Translations under genes and position numbers: made by a program
The notes under the pieces: model-generated
Told to the model about the DNA's origin: nothing
The model's input: the letters and a program-made list of their open reading frames with translations, nothing else
Database searches by the model: none
Source of the DNA: Gammaproteobacteria bacterium
GTDB taxonomy: Bacteria > Pseudomonadota > Gammaproteobacteria > CAIRSR01
Length of the DNA: 34,235 bases
Reading direction: 5' to 3'
NCBI GenBank assembly: GCA_963575655.1
Contig: CAUYTY010000193.1
Location: 1 to 34,235, forward strand
In this document: one piece after another, positions 15,108-34,110 of the stretch
How positions within the stretch are numbered: the first letter of the stretch is position 1
Layout: every line of letters begins with the position of its first letter

Positions 15108-15942
15108 TCAATGCGGTCCACTACCAAGCAAGTCAGTAATGCTCTTGGCATCAAGCACACCGTCCAACCAGGCATCCAGTTGATCAATGGTGGTTCCCTC
15201 AATCCGGCTTGTCGCCCAGTCAGGCACAAGGCCAAAACGGCGAGTGAGGAGGTGTTTTAGGCTTTTGGCTTTCCCTCTGGCTTCCCCTCTGGCCTCTCCT
15301 TCGGCGAAGATTTCCTGATAGGCGCGAGTCTCCTGAAGTGGAGTCAATATGTGCAACATTGCCCAGATCTGCTTCTTGGTGAATGATTTGAAATGCTCGA
15401 AGAACCAAAATACCAAAAGCTCCGATAGGCTTCCACGGATTTCTGGAGCCACGGAGGCTTGCTGAATGGTCTGCCACAACTTTGGGGCTTCCTGGCAGAG
15501 ACGCTCGCTTTCCGGCACCAATGGGGCGAGCACCGCCAAGTAGGGATTGTCCGGTTCCCGTACCAACCACTCGGGCAGAAAATGATCCAGATACACCGCC
15601 TGAAGTAATCCGCCCGCGCTCCCCTTCTCCCCACCCTTGGAATGGTATGGATCCAGGCTCGAATGCAGGAAGATCAGGATTCCCTTTACCTCGCTATCGG
15701 GATGCGTCTCGCTGTAGAGCGCTACCTTCGCCATCAGGTTGTACCAGACAGTTTTGAGGTATTGTCCCTGAAACTCTATCATGGCCGTCTGGCTCGAGGG
15801 CACCATCAATGCGCCGCTCAAGCGCCTTGAGGGTGGGTGAAACGAAGCGATATGACCCCGGCAGGGTGAGCCCTCTGGTCAGCACCCGGAATGCGTCTGC
15901 ACCCATGGCAAGAAATTGATAAATTGGCCGGTCGGTTTTCAT
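15108..15942 (-). pseudogene. DUF2887/DUF4351 Rpn-like PD-(D/E)XK protein, frameshifted
   Basis: The N-terminal part from the ATG at 15942 (MKTDRPIYQFLAMGADAFRV, then LERRIDGALEPDGHD) and the C-terminal part (IEFQGQYLKTVWYNLMAKVA, then LPEWLVREPDN, then LTPLQETRAYQEIFAEG and FGLVPDWATSRIEG) belong to one protein of about 275 residues. They lie in different frames, and a small deletion near 15775-15786 removes the strand expected between GHD and the EFQGQ motif. Relatives combine a Rpn/YhgA-like nuclease fold (RIDG ... EFQ) with a C-terminal DUF4351 helical tail. It is divergent from the alpha-2-macroglobulin gene, with 51 bases between starts. Other remnants lie across the IS1 element, so this gene type has been duplicated and lost here. 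Confidence 0.82.
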
Positions 15943-15993
15943 GAAAGGCAGTGTAACTTATCAATCACGGATTCAATCTTCTCGGAGACATCG

Positions 15994-18900
15994 ATGATCC
16001 AAATAGTGATGTTCCTGTGGCTCTGCCTAATGCTCGTCTTACCCGGTGGAAGCGCCCACGCCACCTTCGAATTAAGTGGATTAGCGACAGATTCAACGGC
16101 CTACGCCACATCACTGCGCGCCAAGACGCCACCACAAATCACCCCCGCGCAACGTGAGACCGCACTCAAACAGGCGCGGACCGCAAGCACTCAAAAAGAC
16201 TCTGCCAAGACCATTGCGGCCTGCGAGTCAGCGGTGACCATGGGCATCAACACCCCCGTGCTCTGGCTGATGTTGAGCGAAGCCTGGACGGTAGCGCCTA
16301 AGCTCAATCGCGACCGCGCCATGCAGACCGCCTACCTCGCCTACAACGCCGCCACCAATCCCGAAGACAAGGCAACGGCGCTGTGGCGGCTAACCACGGT
16401 ATTGGATGAATTATTTGATCGGCCCGACCAGGCATTGAAGGCAGCAACCGAGATCAGGTCACTGATCGTCGCCACCCCAACGGTCGCGAGCCACGCACCC
16501 GGCCTCGAACCACGCATCGAGGCACTGCGTCAGCGCATCGGACTCACGCTGAAGTCGGTGGAGGTACTGTCCGACGAGGCGCTACCACGGGCCTGTCTGC
16601 ATTTTTCCGACCCATTGAGCCGACGCGAGAATGTCCATTTCACCGACTTCCTCCGGCTGGAACCCACCACACAACTGACTCCCGAGGTGCGCGACGAGAC
16701 CCTGTGCCTAACGGGCCTTGAGCACGGCACAAACTATCGCATCACCGTGCGTCAGGGATTGCCCGGCGAAGGCGGTCTGACCGTAAAGAAGAATGAGACG
16801 CAACCCTTCCGCGTTACCGACCGCAGTCCCTCGGTAGCCTTTCGTGGGACGGGTTTCATCCTCCCGCGCGTGGGCAGCGAGGGCGTACCCATCACCACCA
16901 TCAACCTCGATCGGGTGGCGTTGAAGGTCTATCGCGTCAACGATCGGAGCCTCGTCGCTGGCCTTCGTGATAATCATTTCGCAGAACAATTAGGCACTTA
17001 CAGCGCCAGCGAGGTCGCCGAAAACAACGGCGAGCAGGTCTGGGAAGGCGAGATGACCGTGAAGGGAGAACGTAACCACGAGATTACTACCGCACTGTCC
17101 TTCCGCGAGGTAGTAGCCGACCCCAAACCCGGCCTGTACGTCATTACCGCCGAGCCAATCGACGTGTCGAGCAACTTTCACCCGGACGAAAGAGCGACCC
17201 AGTGGCTATTGGTGTCCGATACCGGGCTGTCCGTCTTCCGTGGCGCCGATGGCATCACTGTCTTTGTCCGGTCCTTCGCGACCGCCAAACCGCTCGCCGG
17301 GGTCGAGGTGGCGCTGGTGGCACGCAACAATTCCGAACTAGCCCGTAGCGTTACCGACCCACTCGGGCGGGTGCGCTTCCCGGTTGGCCTGACACGCGGC
17401 AACGGTGGCAACGCTCCCATCGCGGTAATGGCCTACAACGGCGCCGACTTCGCCATGCTCGACCTGACCAAGTCCGCCTTCGACCTATCCGACCGGGGCG
17501 TCGGTGGGCGAGACGCACCGGGACCAATGGACGCCTTCCTCTACACCGATCGTGGCGTCTACCGCCAGGGCGAGACCGTCAACCTATCCGTTCTGCTGCG
17601 CGACGCCAAGACCGTGGCGGTGGAAAACTTCCCGTTAACAGTGAAGGTGCTACGACCGAGTGGCACCGAGTACCACTCCGGCGTTCTACCGGCGGGTCCA
17701 AGTGGAGGCTTCTTTCTGGCGCTAACGTTGTCGAAAACCGCACCACTCGGTACCTGGCAGGCGCAGGTCTTCAGCGACCCCAAAGGTAACCCCGTAGGGC
17801 AGGTGAGCTTCCAGGTCGATGACTTTGTACCGGAGAGGCTGTCCATCGAGTTGAAACCCGCCACACCCCTGCTCGAACCGGGTAAGCCCTTCGAGTTGGC
17901 GGTCAAGGGCCGTTTCCTCTACGGCCCGCCCGCCGCTGGGCTCAACGGTACGGCAGAATTGTCGCTCCAATCCGACCCGCAACCCTATCCCCAGCATAAG
18001 GGCTACCACTTTGGGTTGGCGCAAGAGAGCTTCACCCAACGCCTGGAGCCACTTGAATTCCCGGTTACCGACGCCGAAGGCGTGGCGCACGTCGTTGCCA
18101 AACTGCCGCCCCTGCCCGATACCACCCAACCGCTACGCGGCGAGTTTCGCGTCACGCTGGCCGAGCCCGGTGGCCGACCGACCCGTCAGTCCGTGACCGT
18201 GCCGGTGCGTACTCAGTCCTACGCCATCGGCATTCACCCGCGCTTTGAAGGTGCAACTATCCCCGAAGGACAAGGGGCGGACTTCGACATCATCGCCATC
18301 GCCCCGGAAGGCATAGCGCTCGCCAAGTCCAATTTAACCTGGGAATTGGTGGAGGAACATACGACCTACCAGTGGTATCTCCAGAATGGTCACTACAACT
18401 ATCGAGGAGTCACCCGCTCGGTGCCGCGCCGTTCGGGCGCGTTGTCGATTGGCCCCGACAAACCGATGTCGCTGACGCTCGACCGTTTGGAGTTCGGGCG
18501 CTATCGTCTGGAGGTAGTGGACAAGACGACGCGCGTGGCCTCGTCGTTGCGGTTCTCCTCGGGCTGGCAAATGGGTGATGCCGGGAACGATACCCCGGAC
18601 AAATTAGAGATCACTGCGGATCAACAGACCTACGCGCCGGGCGAGACCGCGCGTGTCCGCCTGACGCCACCGTTCGCGGGCGAGGTGCTGTTGACGGTTG
18701 CCACCGATCGCCTGTTCGATGCCCGCGTGCTAACCGTACCGACCGCTGGGACAACCGCAGAGATCCCGATCGATCCCAATTGGGGTCCTGGCGCCTACGT
18801 CACCGCCACGGTTTTTCGTCCACCGGTCAAGGGCCGTGACCACCAACCAGTACGCGCCATCGGTTTGACTTGGTTAGGGATTAATCCGGCATCGCGCACC

Positions 18901-21201
18901 CTGGCGGTGACCGTGGCCGCGCCCGAGGTCGCACGCCCGCGTCAGTCGCTAACCGTGGATCTGAAAGTGACGCCTGCCAGCGAGTCGACCGAGGATGCCT
19001 GGGTCACGCTCGCGGCGGTGGATGAAGGGATCCTCCAACTCACTGACTTTGCCTCGCCTGATCCCGCCCGTCATCTGTTTGGCAAACGCAAGTTAGGTCT
19101 GGATATTCGCGACGACTACGGTCGGTTGATTGATGCCCTAGAGGGTCCCTTTGGCGGTCTCCACCAGGGAGGCGACGCCAGTGGCGCGGGGTTGCCGGTA
19201 GTGCCGTTCACGGTGGTATCGCTGTTCAAGGGACCGGTCAAGGTAAACGCCGAGGGTATCGCCAAGGTCACCCTCGATCTCCCAGATTTCAACGGCCAAC
19301 TCCGCCTAATGGCGGTGGCTTGGGGAAATTCGCGCGTTGGCTCAACCTCGACGCCGCTGATTGTGCGCGATCCGCTGATGGCCAATGCCACCCTGCCGCG
19401 TTTCCTGGCCCCTGGTGACGATAGCCACCTCACCCTATCACTGCACAACGTCGAGGCTGCGGCTGGGCACTACGAGGTGACGGTGCGCGGGAGCGACGCC
19501 GTGGCCGTAGACAGTGGCAACCTGGCGTTCGATCTCGCTGCTGGTGAACGGCGTAGTGCGGTTCTGCCACTCAAGGGGCTATCGACCGGGATTGGTCGAG
19601 TTGTGTTATCGGTTAAGGGGGTTGGGGGCGCTACCATCGAGCATTCCTATGACCTCACCATTCGTTCCTCACGCCCCGTCGAGACGCAATTCCTGACCCA
19701 GCGGATGCCAGCAGGCGAATCGCTACGACTTTCGGTTGCGCATCTTGCTAGTTACGTTCCGGGCACGGGCAAGATTTCAGCCACTTTTAGTTCCGCCCCG
19801 CCCTTTGACGTAACCGGCATTTTGCGGGCGCTGGACCGTTACCCCTACGGCTGCCTAGAGCAGACCATCAGCCGCGCTTTGCCGTTGCTGGTGGTGCGTG
19901 ACGTGGGCACGGCGCTCGGCGTCGAGCGTAATACCGATGACACCCTGGAAGGCCGGGTACAACAGGCAATTGCACGGGTCCTCGACAAGCAACGCTACGA
20001 TGGATCGTTTGCGTTGTGGGGTTCGAGTGGCGAGACGCACCCGTGGTTGACCGCCTACGCGGTGGAGTTTCTGGCGCGTGCCCGCGTCAAAGGCTATCCG
20101 GTGCCGGAACAGCCACTCCAGGACGCGATCAGTTGGTTGCGTAACCATGCCATCGATGGAAGAAACGATGCCGATGCGTTGGCCAGTCGTGCCTATGCCT
20201 TGTACGCCCTAGCACTGGCAGGGGTGAATTTGGGCGGACCGGCGCGTTACTTCCATGACACCTATCTGGACAAACTCCCGACCCCGCTATCGAAGGGGCA
20301 ACTCGGGGCGACGCTCGCGCGACTCGGCGACCATGGCCGGGCGCAGAGCGCCTTCGAGGCCGCCATGGCCAACCTCACCCGCGACTATTGGCGCGTCGAT
20401 CATGGATCCACGGTACGCGACGCTGCGGCGCTGGTCACGCTGATGACCGAGGTCAACATGGTTGGCGACAATCTGCCGAAGCTAATCGACCGCCTACCCG
20501 CCGCGACCATCACGGTCGGTGCGACCAACACCCAGGAGCAGGCCTGGCTGATGTTGGCCGCCGATACGTTGATGCATGGTACGACCCCGCTGAAACTCAC
20601 CTGGTCGGGAGGTACCCCACTCAAGGGCGACCCGGTGACGCTGGCGCCGACCTCGGCCCAGCTTGCCCCCGACGGCGTAGTGGTGACCAATGTTGGCGAG
20701 ACGGCGGTATGGCAATCGTTGTCGTTGTCGGGCATCCCTGCCGAACCACGACCAGCGGAGCACGAGGGCCTTCGTGTGAAGCGTAAATTCCTTGACCGCC
20801 AAGGTCAGCCCATCGACCTCGACCATATCCGCCAAAACGATGTTTTCGTCATCCTGTTGGAGGGCGAGGCCAATACCAAACTCAACCACCAACTAGTTAT
20901 TACGCATCCGTTACCAGCGGCTTGGGAAATCGAGAAGCGCAGCATCAGCGGCGGCGAAGACAGTGATTTCCCGTGGCTGACCGATTTGACCACACCAACC
21001 ACCGTGGAGGGGCGTGATGATCGCTACGTTGCCGCAGTTGATCTCTCACCAGAAACGCAGACCTTCAAACTGGCCTATTTGGTACGGGCGCTAACCGTTG
21101 GGACCTATGAATTGCCCGGTGCACAGATAGAGGATATGTACCGACCACGTTTCTTCGCCCGCCAAGCAACTGGGCGAATTACGGTACATGCGGTGGAGTA
21201 A
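15994..21201 (+). CDS. Alpha-2-macroglobulin family protein (YfhM/MagD-like), thioester type
   Basis: 1735 residues from ATG 15994, chosen because cggaga precedes it and it begins a good signal peptide ([19 protein letters not shown], cleavage likely after AHA). An in-frame start at 15916 would bury that signal. The product matches bacterial alpha-2-macroglobulins: several MG domains, the [13 protein letters not shown] block typical of the family, a bait-like region, then the thioester motif GCLEQ with Cys1287 followed by the helical TED domain and a C-terminal domain. These proteins trap proteases that breach the envelope. There is no lipobox cysteine, so unlike Escherichia coli YfhM it is probably soluble in the periplasm. 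The family usually pairs with pbpC, which here lies 1.7 kb downstream behind inserted DNA. Confidence 0.95.
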
Positions 21202-25060: not shown

Positions 25061-26176
25061 TTATTCCAACTGATCGGCGGCGGCCATTAAATTTACCCGA
25101 ATACAGGTTCTTCCCACGATTGAGGTATCCAGTTCAATGGTTCCCTTCTGGATGCGTGCTATCAGCATCGCGGAGTAGGTACCAAAACCAGTCCCCTGAT
25201 TCTTTCCTGCCGTTACAAATTTCTCGAAAAAGCGTTCGCGAATCTCTGGCGGCACCTCGCCCACATTTTCAATCGACACCACAAGCGTCGGATGGCAACT
25301 AAACCTAATCGTGATCAGCCCCCCACCAGGGGATGCCTCAATAGCATTTCTGCATAAATTCGAGAACATGGAATGACACAACAATGATTCCGCCATCGTC
25401 TCCACCCGTTGCTCTTCATGCGCCTCCTGATTGCCTACCAGCAGGTCCACCCGCAGTTGCTTTTCTGAAATCATCATGGCCAATTCTTCCAACACCCCAC
25501 GAATCACCGCCAGCAGATCAACCCTCTCTGGCTTAAATTTGTAGACCCCATTCTCCATTTTGAAAATGTCAAGCGAGCGGTTAATCATATCCAACATCCG
25601 GTAACCGGACACGGTAATTTGATGGACAAATCGGCGCTGTTTGTCGGTAAAATCGCATTGTCTAAGCAGCAACTGCGGGATCCCGATAATGATATGAAGT
25701 GGCGCCTTCAAGTCGTGACGGGTAATCCCCTCGATGTCCTCACGCAAACGCGTTGCCTCGATCAATGCCTGATTCTGAATAGTGAGCTGCCGCATTGCAT
25801 CCGCTAGCGCAAGATGAGTACGGATCCGTGCCCGCAAAATCGACGGCTTGATGGGTTTAGTAATATAATCAACCGCCCCCAACCCCAACCCATAGGCCTC
25901 ATCTTCCATCTGATTCCTAATCGTAACAAAAATAACAGGAATATTGCGAGTAACCTCATGTTGCTTGAGTTGTTGACAGACCTCATAACCATCCATATTC
26001 GGCATTATGATATCGAGCAGGATCAAGTCTGGTATTTGTGACTGAGCAGCCGTTAAGGCCAAGGCACCGCTGGTAACCGCATGAACTGTGTAATCCGGGA
26101 CCAGAATAGACCTGATTACGTCAAGATTCTCTGGTAAATCGTCCACCACCAGAATTATTTTCTTGGGTTGGCACAT
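25061..26176 (-). CDS. Response regulator-histidine kinase (REC-HisKA-HATPase), cytoplasmic
   Basis: 371 residues. The N-terminal REC domain (about 5-122) has VVDD and phospho-acceptor D55 in LILLDIIMP, and K108 in YITKP. A coiled linker leads to HisKA with H154 in ITRHDLKAPL, then HATPase_c with an N box NLCRNAIEASP (273-283) and G box GTGFGTYSAM. The G1 box reads SIENVGEVP, lacking the usual Asp but having the Asn-x-Gly variant. No membrane segment, so it should take its signal through REC. It starts two bases after the hybrid kinase stop, so the pair is surely co-transcribed. It may be phosphorylated from the HPt of that kinase and then alter its own kinase activity. The REC resembles that of the REC-PP2C gene (LVLLDIMMPIMDGYEVC), suggesting an internal duplication. 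Confidence 0.93.
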   Translation of the reverse strand: MCQPKKIILVVDDLPENLDVIRSILVPDYTVHAVTSGALALTAAQSQIPDLILLDIIMPNMDGYEVCQQLKQHEVTRNIPVIFVTIRNQMEDEAYGLGLGAVDYITKPIKPSILRARIRTHLALADAMRQLTIQNQALIEATRLREDIEGITRHDLKAPLHIIIGIPQLLLRQCDFTDKQRRFVHQITVSGYRMLDMINRSLDIFKMENGVYKFKPERVDLLAVIRGVLEELAMMISEKQLRVDLLVGNQEAHEEQRVETMAESLLCHSMFSNLCRNAIEASPGGGLITIRFSCHPTLVVSIENVGEVPPEIRERFFEKFVTAGKNQGTGFGTYSAMLIARIQKGTIELDTSIVGRTCIRVNLMAAADQLE

Positions 26177-26178
26177 GA

Positions 26179-29100
26179 TTATGCTTCTCTAAGAAATGAG
26201 TGGGTAAGCTGCCCATTCAACACATCAAGACTCATCAGCGCACTATCAAAATCATATTGCGCAATCTTTTCCTCCAATATCTGCAAGGAGTGGAGTATCA
26301 CCGGATCGGATACATCCATCATCAGCATCACCAGGTGATCTTCCGCCTCAGAATCGTACTGAGTAAGCAAATTACGCAGCTCTCGCAAGCGCGGCACGAG
26401 TTCCTCAACATTCAACGAATCCACTGGACCAAAGGCTACTAGAGATGCCGATGAGAGATTGGTACGAATTGCTGAAACGACCTGGTTCAATTCATCACCT
26501 GCGGTTACAAGCAATGCACTTAGTGATTCTGTCTGCTCAGCGAGCAAGGCTACCTCAAAATTTCGAGCGGCTTGATACAACGAGTTTGCACCGATATTAC
26601 CGGCCACGCCTTTCAGAGTATGCGCCAAATGGGCAGCCTGTTTTAGATCCCCACTGGCAGTCGCGTAACGAATTCCCCGCACTGTGTCGATTTGATTATC
26701 TGCGAATTTAATAAGTAACCGGCGATAGGCCTGAACATTACCCATCATCCGATTGAGCCCATCGCGCGTATTAATTCCAGGAAGCTCTGGTAGGTCTTCG
26801 CTAGAATGATCCTCTACTTCTGAAATACCCCCCAGGTCGGGCAAGGCACGTTCACCAGGGGCGATCCACTCCACAAGCGCACGAAACAACTCCTGCGGAT
26901 CAATCGGCTTGGCAATATGACAATTCATCCCAACATCGCGAGTTATTTTACGATCCTCGATCATGGCATTCGCGGTCATAGCCAGGATCGGCAGTTTGGC
27001 AAAACGCACATCCTCACGTATCTTGCGAGTTGCCTCTAAACCATCCAACACCGGCATCTGCACATCCATCAATACACAATCGTAGCGACCAGGCACTAAC
27101 ATCTCAATTGCTTCCTGCCCATTATTGGCAATGTCCACCACAAAATTGGCCTCCCGTAGTAACTCACTAGCAATCTCCTGGTTAATTTCGTTATCTTCAA
27201 CAAGCAAGATGCGTGCCCCCTGAATTGAATGAAGTAGCGCCATGTTCGGTTCCCCATTTTTATGCGTACTCATCGGCAATGGTAATATTCCCGAGAACAA
27301 TTCGGTAATCGTATTGAATAACAACGATGGATTGATCGGTTTGTTCAAAATACCGTCCAGGAATTCTGCACCTGGGACCCGGACAAAATCCTCGCGACTG
27401 GACGCTGTGATCAGAATAATCTTCGGCGGCGTCTCTGGCAGCAGGTCCATTTTAATCAGAACAGCCGCCTCTACACCATTGATATCAGGCATCTTCCAAT
27501 CTATCAGAATTAACTTGAAGGTATTTCCAGATTCCCGCAGAATATCAAACGCCTCCCTCGCGGAAGGACATACCGTAACCTGGAAGGCATAAGACTCCAA
27601 ATAGCTACTGAGTATCTCAGCCGAAGTCACATTATCATCTACGACCATAACGCAGAGATCTCGCAACGCTCGATTCATCTCTCTTGGTTCGTGATCAGAT
27701 GGTTCCACTACACCAAAGGGAACACTAAAGATAAAACTACTACCCACATCTGGGGTGCTTTTGACATGGATATTTCCACCCATCATTTGTACTAACTGCT
27801 TAGAAATCGCCAAACCAAGACCGGTACCACCATATTTACGGGTAATCGAAGAATCCGTCTGAGAAAAAGACTTGAACAAACGCTGCTGTTGCTTGGCAGT
27901 CATGCCAATACCGGTATCACATACCGAAAATTCCAACCAAACTAGATTATCGGATCGCCCAATCATGCCTACCGATACGATTACCTCACCCGTCGAGGTA
28001 AATTTGATTGCATTATTGGTAAGATTGGTCAATACCTGTCCCAAGCGGAGCGGGTCACCTACCAACTGAAGAGGGATATGTGGGGGGCGAAAGAAGAGTA
28101 ATTCTAGTGATTTCTCATATGCCTTATTGGATATCAAGGTCGATAGATTGTCAAAGACCTGGTCCAAATCAAAAGGAATATTCTCAATATCCAGTTGTCC
28201 CGCCTCAATCTTCGAGAAGTCCAAAATATCATTGAGAATCCCCAATAACGATTCTGCCGAGGCAAAGACCTTATGGAGATAATCACGTTGCTTGGCGGAA
28301 AGTTCGGTATTTAGGCATAACCCGGTGAGTCCAATGATGGCATTCATCGGGGTACGAATCTCATGACTCATGTTGGCCAGAAATTCACTCTTCGCACGAG
28401 TCGCTGCGTTGGCAACATCGAGCGCGGCCGCCAGCTCTTCCTCCATCTTTTTACGCTCAGTAATATCTGTGCGTATAGAAATATACTTAAATGGTTTCCC
28501 CTTCTCGTCCAGGAAGGGAACAATGGTCGCACTGGTCCAATAATATCCACCATCCCTCTTCGAATTTTTTATCTCACCGTGCCACACCTCACCATGGGCA
28601 ATCCGACGCCACATCGCTCGATAGAATTCCTCGGAGTGTTCTTGAGATTTCACAATCCGATGATTTTTTCCGATTAGCTCCTCACGGGTGTAGCCACTAA
28701 TGCTACAGAAGTGATCATTGGCATATGTGATATGCCCCTGAACATCTGCCGCACTCACAATCGCATGTTCGTCGAGGGCAAAATTCAGGAATTTCAGACT
28801 GTCATTGGCCAACTGCAATTCATGGGTGCGCTCTCCGACGAGTCGCTCGAGATTGTCCCGAATCGCCCATAGCTCAGCAGTACGTCGATCAAAGGCACCA
28901 GCCAAGTCTTCTAGCTCATCATGGGTATCCAAGGAATCACAAAAGACGGTCCGATCATCCGGTCTCATGTGTGTAATCTTCTCACATAGATCAAGAATCG
29001 GACGGGCGATCCCATTACCAATCCGCACTGCGAGCAAGATCGCTGCAGAAATTGCCAACACACTCAGCAAAATGAAATTGAAGATAATTCTGCGCAGTGG

Positions 29101-29886
29101 CGCATAATAATCATCTTTCAGAATTCCGGCATCAAGTCGAATATTTAGATTGCGCAGATACGGGGTGGTCTCATTTGGGTAGGCAGAGGTAATAACATAT
29201 TTCTCATCATTGTCTGTCATTTGTGTGTAGAGGACCGACGGTTCCCTCATACGATTATTTCCCACTAGGCGCTCTAACGTTTGATCCTCTTCCTGGAAAA
29301 TTCGTTGCGCCAACAACCTTATATCATAAGAAACAATGATAGCCCCTTGCGTAGTATCATAATACTCAATAGGATCGACAATAATCATGTGCCTCATCGA
29401 AGGTGACATGAGGACCCGCCGCCGATTCATGGCCAGTGCCTGACGAAGCTCGGGGAATTCATTAAAACTTGGCAATGGTTCGTCGACAGCAAACACCGGG
29501 GTACCATCGAAATCAACTAACGAGACTCCGACGACATCTCGATTAGCCCCAAAGTTCTCGATCAGCTTGGGTAGGTAGGTCTGCCGCCCTTGGGCGTCCA
29601 CCAGACCATTGGGGACGAGGGGATTCTTAGCGAGACGGTCGACGGTTTCCACTAGATAGGCAATACGCTGCTCCACTCGCCGCAACTCATGAAAGCTGAT
29701 CTCCCCCATGGTCTCTTGCCGCATATTATCGATGTGCTGCACCATCAAACCGATCACAATCGAGGTTACCAACAACAACGATGCGGCCACGACTCCTGCA
29801 ATCTGCCAAGCCAAGTATCGCTTCAGACTTCGGCGCGGCATCGCTTCCTGATTATTCTTCAGTAGCCCGCGGAAATATCGCAACAT
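26179..29886 (-). CDS. Hybrid sensor histidine kinase with two REC domains and HPt
   Basis: 1235 residues from ATG 29886 (a TTG at 29943 would add 19 unlikely residues). Order: cytoplasmic tip; TM1 about 24-49; periplasmic dCache-like sensor 50-266; TM2 267-290; HAMP; PAS about 371-478 ending TDITERKKM; HisKA with H508 (NMSHEIRTPMN); HATPase with NLTNNAIKFT and GGTGLGLAI; REC1 with D796 (LILIDWKMPD); REC2 with D941 (CVLMDVQMP); HPt with H1089 (AHTLKGVAGN); then a helical tail of about 100 residues. The layout is BarA/EvgS/TorS-like and supports a His-Asp-His relay. Its neighbours are the periplasmic binding-protein fusion upstream and a REC-kinase immediately downstream. A binding protein docking on the sensor domain, as TorT does on TorS, is plausible but inferred. 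Confidence 0.95.
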   Translation of the reverse strand: MLRYFRGLLKNNQEAMPRRSLKRYLAWQIAGVVAASLLLVTSIVIGLMVQHIDNMRQETMGEISFHELRRVEQRIAYLVETVDRLAKNPLVPNGLVDAQGRQTYLPKLIENFGANRDVVGVSLVDFDGTPVFAVDEPLPSFNEFPELRQALAMNRRRVLMSPSMRHMIIVDPIEYYDTTQGAIIVSYDIRLLAQRIFQEEDQTLERLVGNNRMREPSVLYTQMTDNDEKYVITSAYPNETTPYLRNLNIRLDAGILKDDYYAPLRRIIFNFILLSVLAISAAILLAVRIGNGIARPILDLCEKITHMRPDDRTVFCDSLDTHDELEDLAGAFDRRTAELWAIRDNLERLVGERTHELQLANDSLKFLNFALDEHAIVSAADVQGHITYANDHFCSISGYTREELIGKNHRIVKSQEHSEEFYRAMWRRIAHGEVWHGEIKNSKRDGGYYWTSATIVPFLDEKGKPFKYISIRTDITERKKMEEELAAALDVANAATRAKSEFLANMSHEIRTPMNAIIGLTGLCLNTELSAKQRDYLHKVFASAESLLGILNDILDFSKIEAGQLDIENIPFDLDQVFDNLSTLISNKAYEKSLELLFFRPPHIPLQLVGDPLRLGQVLTNLTNNAIKFTSTGEVIVSVGMIGRSDNLVWLEFSVCDTGIGMTAKQQQRLFKSFSQTDSSITRKYGGTGLGLAISKQLVQMMGGNIHVKSTPDVGSSFIFSVPFGVVEPSDHEPREMNRALRDLCVMVVDDNVTSAEILSSYLESYAFQVTVCPSAREAFDILRESGNTFKLILIDWKMPDINGVEAAVLIKMDLLPETPPKIILITASSREDFVRVPGAEFLDGILNKPINPSLLFNTITELFSGILPLPMSTHKNGEPNMALLHSIQGARILLVEDNEINQEIASELLREANFVVDIANNGQEAIEMLVPGRYDCVLMDVQMPVLDGLEATRKIREDVRFAKLPILAMTANAMIEDRKITRDVGMNCHIAKPIDPQELFRALVEWIAPGERALPDLGGISEVEDHSSEDLPELPGINTRDGLNRMMGNVQAYRRLLIKFADNQIDTVRGIRYATASGDLKQAAHLAHTLKGVAGNIGANSLYQAARNFEVALLAEQTESLSALLVTAGDELNQVVSAIRTNLSSASLVAFGPVDSLNVEELVPRLRELRNLLTQYDSEAEDHLVMLMMDVSDPVILHSLQILEEKIAQYDFDSALMSLDVLNGQLTHSFLREA

Positions 29887-29900
29887 AACGATAGAAATCC

Positions 29901-30264
29901 TAGTGCTTATGCCTATTAAAAGTAATCGCTCGTCCCCTCCCAACGGAGGGGAGTAAACAATTACTCAACGAGTGCAGAAAGGGCGATAAGAAATAATATC
30001 CAATTATTCTTTTGATCACGCCCCTCCTCCTATTAGTAAAGTATGGTAAGCAATGATTATTGAGGTACGGTAGTTGTGGGCAGGACGGAGACAATGACGC
30101 CATTGGCATCGTAGCGACTGAAGTGATAATCATCTGTTGACAGAGCTTCGTGTTGTTTAGGAGTAAAGGGCTGATGATAGGTTTTTATCAATCCCTCATG
30201 GGTGTCGAGATGTTCTAATGCGTCGCGCACGGCCTCTCGATCGGTTGTGCCTGCGGCAGTAATG
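29901..30264. repeat. 364-bp tandem direct duplication, copy 1
   Basis: Copy 1 (29901-30264) and copy 2 (30265-30628) look identical by eye from tagtgcttatgcc to gcggcagtaatg, arranged head to tail. The unit holds the last 68 codons and stop of the binding-protein fusion gene plus about 156 bases of intergenic DNA leading to the hybrid kinase. The unit contains a small palindrome (cccctcccaacggagggg). Such a perfect repeat means either a very recent event or an assembly error. Confidence 0.92.
30057..30264 (-). pseudogene. Orphan C-terminal copy (68 codons) of the binding-protein fusion gene
   Basis: Inside duplication copy 1 the reading ITAAGTTDREAVRDALEHLD through VLPTTTVPQ repeats the end of the neighbouring gene exactly. 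The bases before it belong to the intergenic part of copy 2, so a chimeric frame from 30497 is open for 146 codons but begins inside the real gene in another frame. It has no start of its own and is not expected to be a gene. Confidence 0.85.
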
Positions 30265-30628
30265 TAGTGCTTATGCCTATTAAAAGTAATCGCTCGTCCC
30301 CTCCCAACGGAGGGGAGTAAACAATTACTCAACGAGTGCAGAAAGGGCGATAAGAAATAATATCCAATTATTCTTTTGATCACGCCCCTCCTCCTATTAG
30401 TAAAGTATGGTAAGCAATGATTATTGAGGTACGGTAGTTGTGGGCAGGACGGAGACAATGACGCCATTGGCATCGTAGCGACTGAAGTGATAATCATCTG
30501 TTGACAGAGCTTCGTGTTGTTTAGGAGTAAAGGGCTGATGATAGGTTTTTATCAATCCCTCATGGGTGTCGAGATGTTCTAATGCGTCGCGCACGGCCTC
30601 TCGATCGGTTGTGCCTGCGGCAGTAATG
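30265..30628. repeat. 364-bp tandem direct duplication, copy 2
   Basis: Second copy of the 29901-30264 unit. This is the copy continuous with the full-length binding-protein fusion gene, covering its final 68 codons, stop and original 3' flank. Confidence 0.92.
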
Positions 30629-32589
30629 GCGAGCGCCAATAGATGTACTAAATCGTAAGCGTGGGCAGTGCTATCCGGGACAAAGATATCACGCGCCGAT
30701 GACGCATCGAAAGTAGCCAGGTAACGCTGGGTTACGTCGAGGCTTTTTGGCGTCTGAGCGGTTAGAAAGGAAAATGATTGAATAAACGTCAAATCGACTT
30801 TATTCAGGGCAGAGCGCGCCTCGTCACGCATATTGCTATTCGACATCCCCCAATGGGATATCATTGGCAAAGGATGGAGTCGTTCCGCCATAGCATTGAC
30901 AATACGAATACTTTCCGCAGTAGTGGCCACCACCACCACAATATCCGCACCGGATGCTTCAATCCGCGATAGATGAACCGGGAAATCATATTCTCCACTA
31001 TCGAACCATTCTACTGCAACGGGGGCAATACCACGACGTTGTAGCGCTTCGGTTAATACTTGATAATTCTCCCGGCCCAACTCGGCATTATTCAACAGTA
31101 AGGCTGGCCGTTGGGCATGCTCAAGTGAATGATTGATGAGAAAGGTACCACTGTCACTATCGGAAACGGATAATCGAAAGATAAAATTGGGGTAATAACC
31201 ATTATCGATGATGCGTGTGGCTGCCGCTCTGGGAATAAGCATCGGGACCCTAGCTTGATGAGTGGCATCAATCTCTCTGAGAACCACATTGCTCGTAGAA
31301 CCACCAATAATTGCCACCAGATTGGGAAATGCGACGAAATCATCAATATTCCTAATTCCACGCTCGGGTAGCCCCCGATCATCCTTGGCAATCAAGGCAA
31401 GCCTACGACCCAAGACACCACCGTGCTCATTGATCTCATTAATAGCAAGCATGGCGCCGCGTTTGATTGCCAATCCAGCCCCCACGCTATCAATCGACAG
31501 ATCGGTATCTAGGCCAATTACAATATCAGATAAGTTTTCCTCACGCTGTTCACGCAAAAGCTCTTCACTCCTTGACATAATGTCAGAACCAATCACTCCT
31601 TCAAATTGATACGGTATATGTGCGGTCAGTGCGGAAAAATGCCGCCGTTGCTCTTCAGTTAGTTCATAGATAGTTATGCCGGTACGACGGATAATGTCAA
31701 GAGACTCTGCTTCATAACGAAGCGTTTCAGCGCGTTCAAAGGGGGTAAGACGCCGCGCAATATCTATCAAGAGTAAACCAATATCATTAGGGAGTGTGTC
31801 GAAGACTTTCTGGCTGATGACAAAAACATAACCAAGATAACCGTGGTTGCTAAGGGTAAGGTGCGCCTGTACTTTATGGAAATCCATCGCGGCAATTGCA
31901 ATCAGAGGATTTTCCTGGCCATCCACCACACCATCCTGCAATGCCTGGTAGGTAGAGTGAAAGTCAATTGGTAACGATTGAGCGCCAAAAGCCTTATACT
32001 GGTCCATGATAACGCGGTTTTTCATGACGCGCATCTTGAGATCTCGAAAGTCTTCTGGCTCATGGATCGGTCGATTCGCAGTAAATTGCTTAAATCCCAT
32101 CTCCCAGAAAGTAACGCCAATCAGGTCAATGGAATTTAATTTCGCAAGGATTAATCTACCGGGTTCGCCATCTAGCATTCGGTATACCTCGTTGCGATTG
32201 CGGAAGAAGAATGGTAAGTCAACATATTGCATTGCGGGCACCGCCGTACCAAGTTTGGCGGTGGGCACCAGCATGATGTCGAGGGTACCGTCGCGGACCA
32301 TCTCGATCATTTGGTCGTCACTACCAAGCTGCTGTGCGGGATACACCGTAACATGAGTTCGACCGTTACTTTCAATTCGCACCATCTTGGCGAATTTCTC
32401 CGCAGCGAGGTGCAGGGCGCTATTCACTTGGAAGTTATGACCAAAACGTAGATACAGTGTATTATCGACTGGTTGCGGCGGCGCATGTTCACGAGTGCGC
32501 AGATAGAGTTGGAACAAAAATAGAGAAACACCCAACCCTACCGCGATGAGAAGAAGGGAAAATATCCGATACCATGACCATAATTTCAT
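30421..32589 (-). CDS. DctP-type/LivJ-type solute-binding fusion protein, membrane-anchored
   Basis: 722 residues. TM helix about 9-30 without cleavage site or lipobox, so anchored with the rest in the periplasm. Domain 1 (about 45-345) is a TRAP-transporter DctP-like binding protein: QLGSDDQMIEMVRDGTLDIM (88-107), LPFFFRNRNEVYRML, substrate-type Arg187 in LKMRVM, and YQALQDGVVDGQENPL (214-229). Domain 2 (about 355-720) is a type-I periplasmic binding domain (Peripla_BP_6, LivJ-like): GAGLAIKRGAMLAINEINEH, GGVLGRRL, AIIGGSTSNVVLREID, VPMLIPRAA, and LLLNNAELGRENYQVLTEAL. I do not know this fusion as a named family. No DctQM or LivHMGF genes are present, and the gene sits between kinase and phosphatase genes, so a sensor role is inferred. 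The 3' end lies in the tandem duplication. Confidence 0.92.
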   Translation of the reverse strand: MKLWSWYRIFSLLLIAVGLGVSLFLFQLYLRTREHAPPQPVDNTLYLRFGHNFQVNSALHLAAEKFAKMVRIESNGRTHVTVYPAQQLGSDDQMIEMVRDGTLDIMLVPTAKLGTAVPAMQYVDLPFFFRNRNEVYRMLDGEPGRLILAKLNSIDLIGVTFWEMGFKQFTANRPIHEPEDFRDLKMRVMKNRVIMDQYKAFGAQSLPIDFHSTYQALQDGVVDGQENPLIAIAAMDFHKVQAHLTLSNHGYLGYVFVISQKVFDTLPNDIGLLLIDIARRLTPFERAETLRYEAESLDIIRRTGITIYELTEEQRRHFSALTAHIPYQFEGVIGSDIMSRSEELLREQREENLSDIVIGLDTDLSIDSVGAGLAIKRGAMLAINEINEHGGVLGRRLALIAKDDRGLPERGIRNIDDFVAFPNLVAIIGGSTSNVVLREIDATHQARVPMLIPRAAATRIIDNGYYPNFIFRLSVSDSDSGTFLINHSLEHAQRPALLLNNAELGRENYQVLTEALQRRGIAPVAVEWFDSGEYDFPVHLSRIEASGADIVVVVATTAESIRIVNAMAERLHPLPMISHWGMSNSNMRDEARSALNKVDLTFIQSFSFLTAQTPKSLDVTQRYLATFDASSARDIFVPDSTAHAYDLVHLLALAITAAGTTDREAVRDALEHLDTHEGLIKTYHQPFTPKQHEALSTDDYHFSRYDANGVIVSVLPTTTVPQ

Positions 32590-32789: not shown

Positions 32790-33917
32790 TCAATAAATCT
32801 GAACCTCCACCAAGGTGATATCGTCATCATAAACCGATGATGCAACATACTCATTGAGTAGGCCCATCAAATTATCCAGGGCGGTTTTTCCTGTGGCTAC
32901 TTGCTTAAGAAACGCTGCCAATCTCTCCATTCCAAACATTTCGGCATTACTACCTTCAGATTCAATGATGCCGTCTGAGAAAATATACAGACGATCTCCT
33001 TTTTCCAGAGAGATATCCAACGCGGCACTAGCAACATCCAAACTTCTTGAAATCCCCAGGGCCAGCATCTCCGACGAAAGATAGCGCTGGATTACTCCCT
33101 TCCGAATCAATAAGGCATCTGGCAGCCCACCGTTCCAAAGCATGGCTTGGGTACGCTCCGCAGAGATCTCGAGTAAGGTAGCAGCAAGAAAAAGCCCCAC
33201 AGGAAGTCGCGCACACAGTTGGGTGTTGATCTCAATAAGAATCTGTTCCCCACTTGCCCCCCGTTTGGCCAATTCATGCAAAATATAGGTCACTAATGGA
33301 CCACCAATAGCAGCGGGGAGACCATGGCCGGTAAAATCTCCCAATAAAATCAGTTGCCGTCCGTCCGGGGTAAAGGTTGAAATAAGAATATCGCCTGCAG
33401 TCTTCTCTACGGGAGAGATGATATGGCGCAGATAACGTTCGTCAAATTCATCCGCCTTCCGCATTTTAAGGATGATAGCCTCAATCAATTCGCGCTCATG
33501 AAGAAGGCGTTGATTATGCTCGTCTAATTCCTGTTTAGTGGCTTGGAGAGTTAAGTGAGTCCTAACTCGCGCCTGAACGATAGGAATACGAAACGGCTTG
33601 GTAATATAGTCAACCGCCCCCAGCTTTAATCCCGCAATCTCATCATTTTCCTCTGATTTCGCCGTCACAAAAATAACCGGAATATTTCGAGTTGCCGCAT
33701 CCGCCTTTAACCTACGACACACCTCGTAGCCATCCATGATTGGCATCATGATATCCAACAGTACTAGATCAGGAATGGGCCAAATATTCGCGGCCTTTAA
33801 GGCCATTTGACCATTGATGGCGGCCCTCACCGTGTAATCACGTAACAAGGCTCCTTTTAACACATCAATATTTTCAGGAGTGTCATCGACAATCAGTATG
33901 GTTGGTTTGTTATTCAT
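32790..33917 (-). CDS. Response regulator with PP2C (SpoIIE/RsbU-type) phosphatase output
   Basis: 375 residues from ATG 33917, which has gagg six bases upstream; an open frame to 34079 runs into a MITE and is rejected. REC domain (about 5-122) with D55 in LVLLDIMMP and K108 in YITKPF, a helical linker (KQELDEHNQRLLHERELIEA), then a PP2C-type Ser/Thr phosphatase with metal-binding motifs KTAGDIL, LLGDFTGHG, YIFSDGIIES and YDDDITLV. Same layout as RsbU-like regulators such as HsbR, which control an anti-sigma-factor antagonist once phosphorylated, for example by an HPt module. No antagonist or anti-sigma gene lies in the window. It is the first gene of the minus-strand signalling cluster, so phosphorylation by the hybrid kinase is a reasonable inference. 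Confidence 0.93.
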   Translation of the reverse strand: MNNKPTILIVDDTPENIDVLKGALLRDYTVRAAINGQMALKAANIWPIPDLVLLDIMMPIMDGYEVCRRLKADAATRNIPVIFVTAKSEENDEIAGLKLGAVDYITKPFRIPIVQARVRTHLTLQATKQELDEHNQRLLHERELIEAIILKMRKADEFDERYLRHIISPVEKTAGDILISTFTPDGRQLILLGDFTGHGLPAAIGGPLVTYILHELAKRGASGEQILIEINTQLCARLPVGLFLAATLLEISAERTQAMLWNGGLPDALLIRKGVIQRYLSSEMLALGISRSLDVASAALDISLEKGDRLYIFSDGIIESEGSNAEMFGMERLAAFLKQVATGKTALDNLMGLLNEYVASSVYDDDITLVEVQIY

Positions 33918-34017
33918 AGATCCTCGGCGCAGCCCCCCCGATCCCGAAGAGTCGAGGGGAGGAAGCGTTGCCTTTTTCTTAAACGGCACACAGAACGGGT
34001 GAATTTTTAGGCATAGG

Positions 34018-34110
34018 TAACCCAAGTTGCCACCTAGCACGCTTTTTCCCCTCTCCTGGAGGGAGAGATGCCTTCTCATTTATCACCGCATAGGTGGGTA
34101 ACTTGGGTTA
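34018..34110. repeat. Family B MITE, short form (93 bp)
   Basis: Ends taacccaagttgccacct and aggtgggtaacttgggtta (one extra G in the right arm). The interior resembles the 11088-11179 copy: agcacgctttttcccctctc ... tatcaccgcat. It lies about 100 bases upstream of the REC-PP2C start. Confidence 0.88.

Follow-up and report, generated by a model that had tools for sequence, protein, structure and literature searches.

A membrane-tethered fusion of TRAP-type and LivJ-type binding proteins as a likely two-pocket co-receptor of an adjacent hybrid kinase

Binding proteins that act as co-sensors of kinases are already known, as are signalling proteins with tandem binding domains (BvgS, EvgS and CdgH) and co-sensors for carboxylates such as BctC. 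The kinase LuxQ, for example, reads its ligand via the type-I binding protein LuxP (PMC8534201). Kinase-activating binding proteins have been characterised in only about ten sensor-kinase cases (PMC9602780), and the Pseudomonas aeruginosa kinases AgtS and AruS were tested with the binding proteins encoded by their neighbours and no binding was found (PMC11113362). In nearly all TRAP binding proteins the carboxylate of the ligand is held by a conserved arginine (PMC5812351). In open-access papers we found no described signalling fusion of a TRAP-type with a LIV-type binding protein, as the original prediction on this DNA had also stated, an absence that is in itself weak evidence. Here we analyse such a fusion, which is in our judgement likely to be a membrane-tethered two-pocket co-receptor that works in the manner of LuxP/LuxQ and signals through the adjacent dCache hybrid kinase rather than serving transport.

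The window, that is the whole stretch of DNA analysed, comprises 34,235 nucleotides of a gammaproteobacterial genome (GCA_963575655.1, contig CAUYTY010000193.1). The fusion and its parts are encoded as follows.

30421..32589, minus strand: DctP/type-I PBP fusion, candidate two-pocket co-receptor, 722 aa, ATG start (Pfam, AlphaFold2, VIA-align)
32500..32565, minus strand: N-terminal, uncleaved TM anchor, residues 9-30 (sequence, AlphaFold2 helix 2-31, hydropathy 2.34)
31624..32445, minus strand: DctP (TRAP solute-binding) domain, residues 49-322 (Pfam E 1.4e-80; Z 37-39)
32029..32031, minus strand: Arg187, aligned with the ligand-carboxylate arginine of TRAP binding proteins (alignment and PMC5812351)
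31546..31587, minus strand: connecting helix between both domains, residues 335-348 (AlphaFold2, pLDDT 86-95)
30547..31524, minus strand: type-I (Peripla_BP_6, LivJ-like) domain, residues 356-681 (Pfam E 1.1e-33; Z up to 42.8)

The claim that two unrelated folds lie in tandem in one polypeptide was borne out by Pfam, AlphaFold2 and VIA-align in agreement, and both motifs named for it, LKMRVM and QALQDGVVDGQENP, are present in the fusion. An N-terminal TM helix is followed by a complete DctP domain and then a complete type-I domain. The DctP match covers 275 of 286 profile positions and scores 271 bits with PF03480 (cut-off 23.4) and 239 with TIGR00787 (cut-off 175; Pfam/NCBIfam), and Peripla_BP_6 (PF13458) is matched over profile positions 2-318 of 343 with 118 bits against a cut-off of 31.7. 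From an alignment of 35 fusions AlphaFold2 gave a model that has a mean pLDDT of 92 and a pTM of 0.88 and consists of the N-terminal helix and two complete bilobal domains. Structural comparison with VIA-align places residues 43-348 with TRAP binding proteins (Z 37-39; 4p47, Z 39.2) and residues 354-716 with type-I binding proteins (4q6w, Z 42.8; LivJ 4gnr, Z 40.9). The single uncleaved anchor is likewise supported by a hydrophobic stretch at residues 9-27 with a mean Kyte-Doolittle value of 2.34, by the modelled helix, and by an N-terminus in which no obvious signal-peptidase site was seen by eye. Two relatives (L042 and L043) begin, again judged by eye, with lipoprotein-like signals (LSAC, LLNGC) in place of the TM helix, so that what is preserved seems to be the tether to the membrane and not the TM helix itself.

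The 3' end of the gene carries an exact duplication, in which the last 68 codons of the fusion together with intergenic DNA are repeated once.

30265..30628, minus strand: first copy of the exact 364-bp tandem duplication (fusion 3' end and intergenic DNA)
29901..30264, minus strand: second copy of the 364-bp duplication, which yields a spurious 146-aa ORF at 30057-30497

We do not count the 146-aa ORF as a gene, since it arises by read-through into the second copy. With the duplication the fusion and the kinase gene are 477 bp apart in the window, compared with 11 bp in the same-genus relative, and a gap of this size could weaken translational coupling between the two. The duplication may be either real or an assembly artefact. 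Together with the fragmentation of the genome into 261 contigs, it is the kind of feature one would cite for two separate genes joined by an assembly error, or for a recent accident devoid of function. We consider the chance of this negligible, since searches of 369 and 398 genomes recovered another 40 genes with this domain order, spread over two classes of one phylum and 23-70% identical to the window's protein (23-69% within the 35-fusion alignment). The same-class search (369 genomes) gave six other full-length fusions, 41-70% identical, and the phylum profile search (398 genomes) about 34 more, nearly all from another class, where 26 of 48 genomes hold one or two fusions; a 27th match listed there is a stand-alone type-I gene. 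The listed fusions are free of internal stop codons. Assembly error, which the original prediction had named as something that would refute it, thus does not account for the fusion.

Next to the fusion the window encodes a hybrid histidine kinase and two further signalling proteins.

26179..29943 (probable start 29886), minus strand: hybrid histidine kinase adjoining the fusion, 1254 aa (profiles)
29089..29757, minus strand: periplasmic dCache-like sensor domain of the kinase (model residues 44-266; AlphaFold2 pLDDT 84)
25061..26176, minus strand: REC-HisKA-HATPase protein, downstream, conserved at many fusion loci (profiles)
32790..34079, minus strand: REC-SpoIIE phosphatase upstream of the fusion, probable output protein (profiles)

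The kinase is ordered TM, dCache-like, TM, HAMP-like, PAS, HisKA, HATPase, REC, REC and Hpt. Its sensor domain reaches 18.5 bits with the Pfam dCache profile PF02743, below the cut-off of 45, and partners of other fusions reach up to 34 bits, which is why we speak of a dCache-like domain. When profiles were compared with the alignment of the sensors, the matches fell mainly on HAMP regions rather than on dCache entries. The sensor model itself has a double-PDC fold with matches at Z 12.7-15.3, among them KinD (15.3), DctB (14.5), PctA (13.8), LuxQ (3c30, 12.9) and chain C of the LuxP-LuxQ complex (2hj9, 12.8). DctB-like dCache domains themselves bind ligand, and the kinase may therefore have a ligand of its own. 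At the same-genus locus (L038) the REC-SpoIIE gene overlaps the start of the fusion by 4 bp. Elsewhere in the window, a 1761-aa open reading frame occupies 15916-21201 on the plus strand.

The pairing of fusion and dCache-like domain is general. We scanned the DNA around 41 fusion genes, that of the window included, with profiles; two loci (L097, L100) reach the contig end, and the downstream gene could be read at the other 39. At every one of these the next same-strand gene carries a homologous periplasmic dCache-like domain, mostly after a 4-bp overlap or a gap of less than 60 bp, and in the window this gene is the next real one past the duplicated fragment. The original prediction that the fusion reports to one kinase is in keeping with this conserved signalling partner, the contact between the two being what we infer from it. 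Most partners are hybrid histidine kinases with REC and Hpt domains. At L040 the partner is a dCache-GGDEF-EAL protein instead of a kinase, and the constant element is accordingly the dCache-like domain. Since the sensor domain is retained even where the output has changed from kinase to GGDEF-EAL, the conserved core of the pairing seems to be the contact in the periplasm. Chance adjacency of the AgtS/AruS type is unlikely, given a pairing conserved over these loci in two classes.

In seven loci of one family (L103, L105-L110) the dCache-like partner showed no kinase core; four of these partners were scanned with Pfam, which recognised PAS but no output domain, and a REC-HK gene follows most of them. 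The fusions at these loci are second copies whose DctP domain has lost Arg187 and the greater part of DGQENP. At another locus a gene for a phosphonate-type binding protein (L039:5475-6398) lies between the fusion's kinase and a different hybrid kinase, and may mark one more binding-protein/kinase pair.

Both domains of the fusion derive from transport families, and the genome of the window holds two BPD_transp_2 permease genes away from the fusion, so one may ask whether a permease encoded at a distance receives either solute, or both, from the protein. Several observations make this very improbable. The original prediction had noted that the window holds no permease, and the profile comparison indeed found no DctQ, DctM or BPD_transp_2 gene there. 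The same three families are absent from the fetched DNA at all 41 fusion loci, so that homologous fusions beside TRAP or ABC permeases, the other thing that the original prediction had named as refuting it, were not seen, and no LIV/HAAT permease or ATPase partner was found either in the window or at the other loci. In the same scan DctQ or DctM stood beside seven of eight stand-alone DctP genes and BPD_transp_2 beside all 14 transporter-type stand-alone BP6 genes. The genome of the window, which is 98% complete, is without a TRAP permease: its sole DctP domain is that of the fusion, DctQ was not found in it, and its DctM search gave a single weak match of 24 bits, which we rejected as a TRAP permease after inspection by eye had pointed to a cNMP-binding-like N-terminus joined to a 12-TM SLC13-like transporter. 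In the tree, the type-I halves stand apart from the transporter-type BP6 proteins with a support of 100/100.

Stand-alone relatives of the type-I half show a similar arrangement. Thirteen such genes have no permease; twelve are followed by a dCache-like protein and the thirteenth by a kinase. Those at L044-L047, L049, L050 and L112-L117 lie immediately upstream of genes for dCache-like kinases or GGDEF-EAL proteins, free of permeases. One scan of genome contigs gave only two named stand-alone type-I relatives, from Pseudomonas and Psychromonas. One further locus encodes a single protein with a TIR domain and WD40 repeats beside an ABC transporter operon (L048:1903-4830). The DctP halves, together with one DctP-only protein (L111), separate from 26 stand-alone DctP domains with a support of 99 in a quick tree. 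A single origin of the fusion needs one change on the type-I tree, at low support (46/25).

The original prediction further proposed a dual-ligand receptor. For the subgroup of the window the sequences favour this reading, with both domains complete and the DctP arginine kept; as a general rule it did not survive. The arginine, assigned as Arg187 by motif and alignment, occurs in 22 of the 35 fusions in the alignment, the window's among them, with DGQENP or close variants, and is lost in the other 13, which retain the domain itself. We therefore rejected the statement that all fusions are dual-ligand, and in these 13 the DctP domain may be only a spacer.

Extended to all fusions, this thought becomes an alternative in which the type-I domain alone senses and touches the kinase and DctP is a rigid spacer that sets its height above the membrane. 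The persistence of DctP after loss of the arginine and the dCache-like partners of stand-alone type-I relatives fit it well, and so do the distance correlations with the kinase sensor: taken over all fusions, sensor distances are followed more closely by the type-I half than by DctP (partial correlations 0.80 versus 0.26), with 0.73 in Arg-bearing and 0.69 in Arg-less fusions for type-I given DctP, values that are to be read in the light of a phylogeny shared by the matrices, which partial correlations lessen but do not remove. We nevertheless regard it as unlikely. In the window's subgroup DctP is more strongly conserved than type-I, with a mean identity among Arg-bearing fusions of 0.56 against 0.43 for type-I and the higher value in 97% of pairs, and it too tracks the sensor (partial correlation given type-I 0.65 with the arginine, 0.07 without it). 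In Arg-less fusions the mean identities are 0.34 for DctP and 0.40 for type-I. A mere spacer would need neither the arginine nor DGQENP. Furthermore, in genome G761 a gene with DctP alone, which belongs to the fusion clade, adjoins a kinase of the fusion type (L111:7416-8483), and a gene with type-I alone lies at a different place next to a second dCache-like kinase (L112:8260-9435). Genome G448 has a fusion in which the type-I domain is internally deleted, DctP is intact and the kinase is still adjacent (L096:7924-9612). DctP thus persists where the type-I half is missing or crippled.

This modularity, comprising stand-alone type-I proteins with related kinases, a DctP-only gene, a deleted type-I domain and lost arginines, supports the co-receptor reading. 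In it, the N-terminal helix would anchor the fusion to the inner membrane, the DctP domain would probably bind a carboxylate via Arg187 and the type-I domain a second, different small molecule. Closing of either domain would alter the contact of the fusion with the dCache-like periplasmic domain of the kinase, much as in LuxP-LuxQ, and the changed contact would shift kinase or phosphatase activity. Phosphate would then pass along REC-REC-Hpt and on to the REC-HK and REC-SpoIIE proteins encoded nearby, and REC-SpoIIE would probably act by way of a partner switch. Inspection of pocket residues by eye gave nothing firm as to ligands; in the type-I half, most relatives show the tryptophan of PWAA at a position that is arginine in the window and its congener.

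The most likely benefit of the fusion is that one signalling pathway senses two kinds of solute. A broader form of this idea, to which we give an even chance, is that of a two-input receptor whose TRAP-type and LIV-type pockets respond to different classes of solute, such as a carboxylate together with an amino-acid-like or aromatic molecule. Both inputs would be merged into a single phosphorelay or c-di-GMP output, the dCache-like domain of the kinase may take up a third ligand, and lineages would tune the receptor by losing either pocket. If true, a co-receptor made of binding proteins from two transporter superfamilies, and encoded in a genome that lacks the matching TRAP transporter, would be a natural nutrient logic gate. 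The fusions, DctP-only, type-I-only and pocket-dead variants offer a ready series to find out which pocket drives the signal.

Compared with described systems, the locus combines familiar elements in a different way. As in LuxP/LuxQ, which responds to autoinducer-2, a separately encoded type-I protein goes with a dCache or double-PDC hybrid kinase, a likeness that does not imply membership in the same sequence family; LuxP, however, is one soluble domain, whereas the type-I domain of the fusion sits behind a TRAP-type domain and is tethered to the membrane. TorT/TorS similarly pairs a type-I binding protein with a hybrid kinase, but the sensor domain of TorS is all-helical (PMC8534201) and that of the fusion's kinase is dCache-like. 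Like BvgS/EvgS and CdgH, the fusion would feed two tandem binding-protein domains into one signalling output; there both domains are PBPb and covalently part of the kinase or cyclase, whereas here two unrelated folds form a separate protein. BctC/BctE offers a parallel in which a carboxylate-binding protein of a secondary transporter family acts on a sensor kinase (PMC5812351, PMC9602780), although BctC, of the TctC family, has a single domain and also serves its transporter, which the fusion does without. The stand-alone type-I/dCache kinase pairs described above share a related type-I protein and a related partner with the fusion and differ from it by the absence of DctP.
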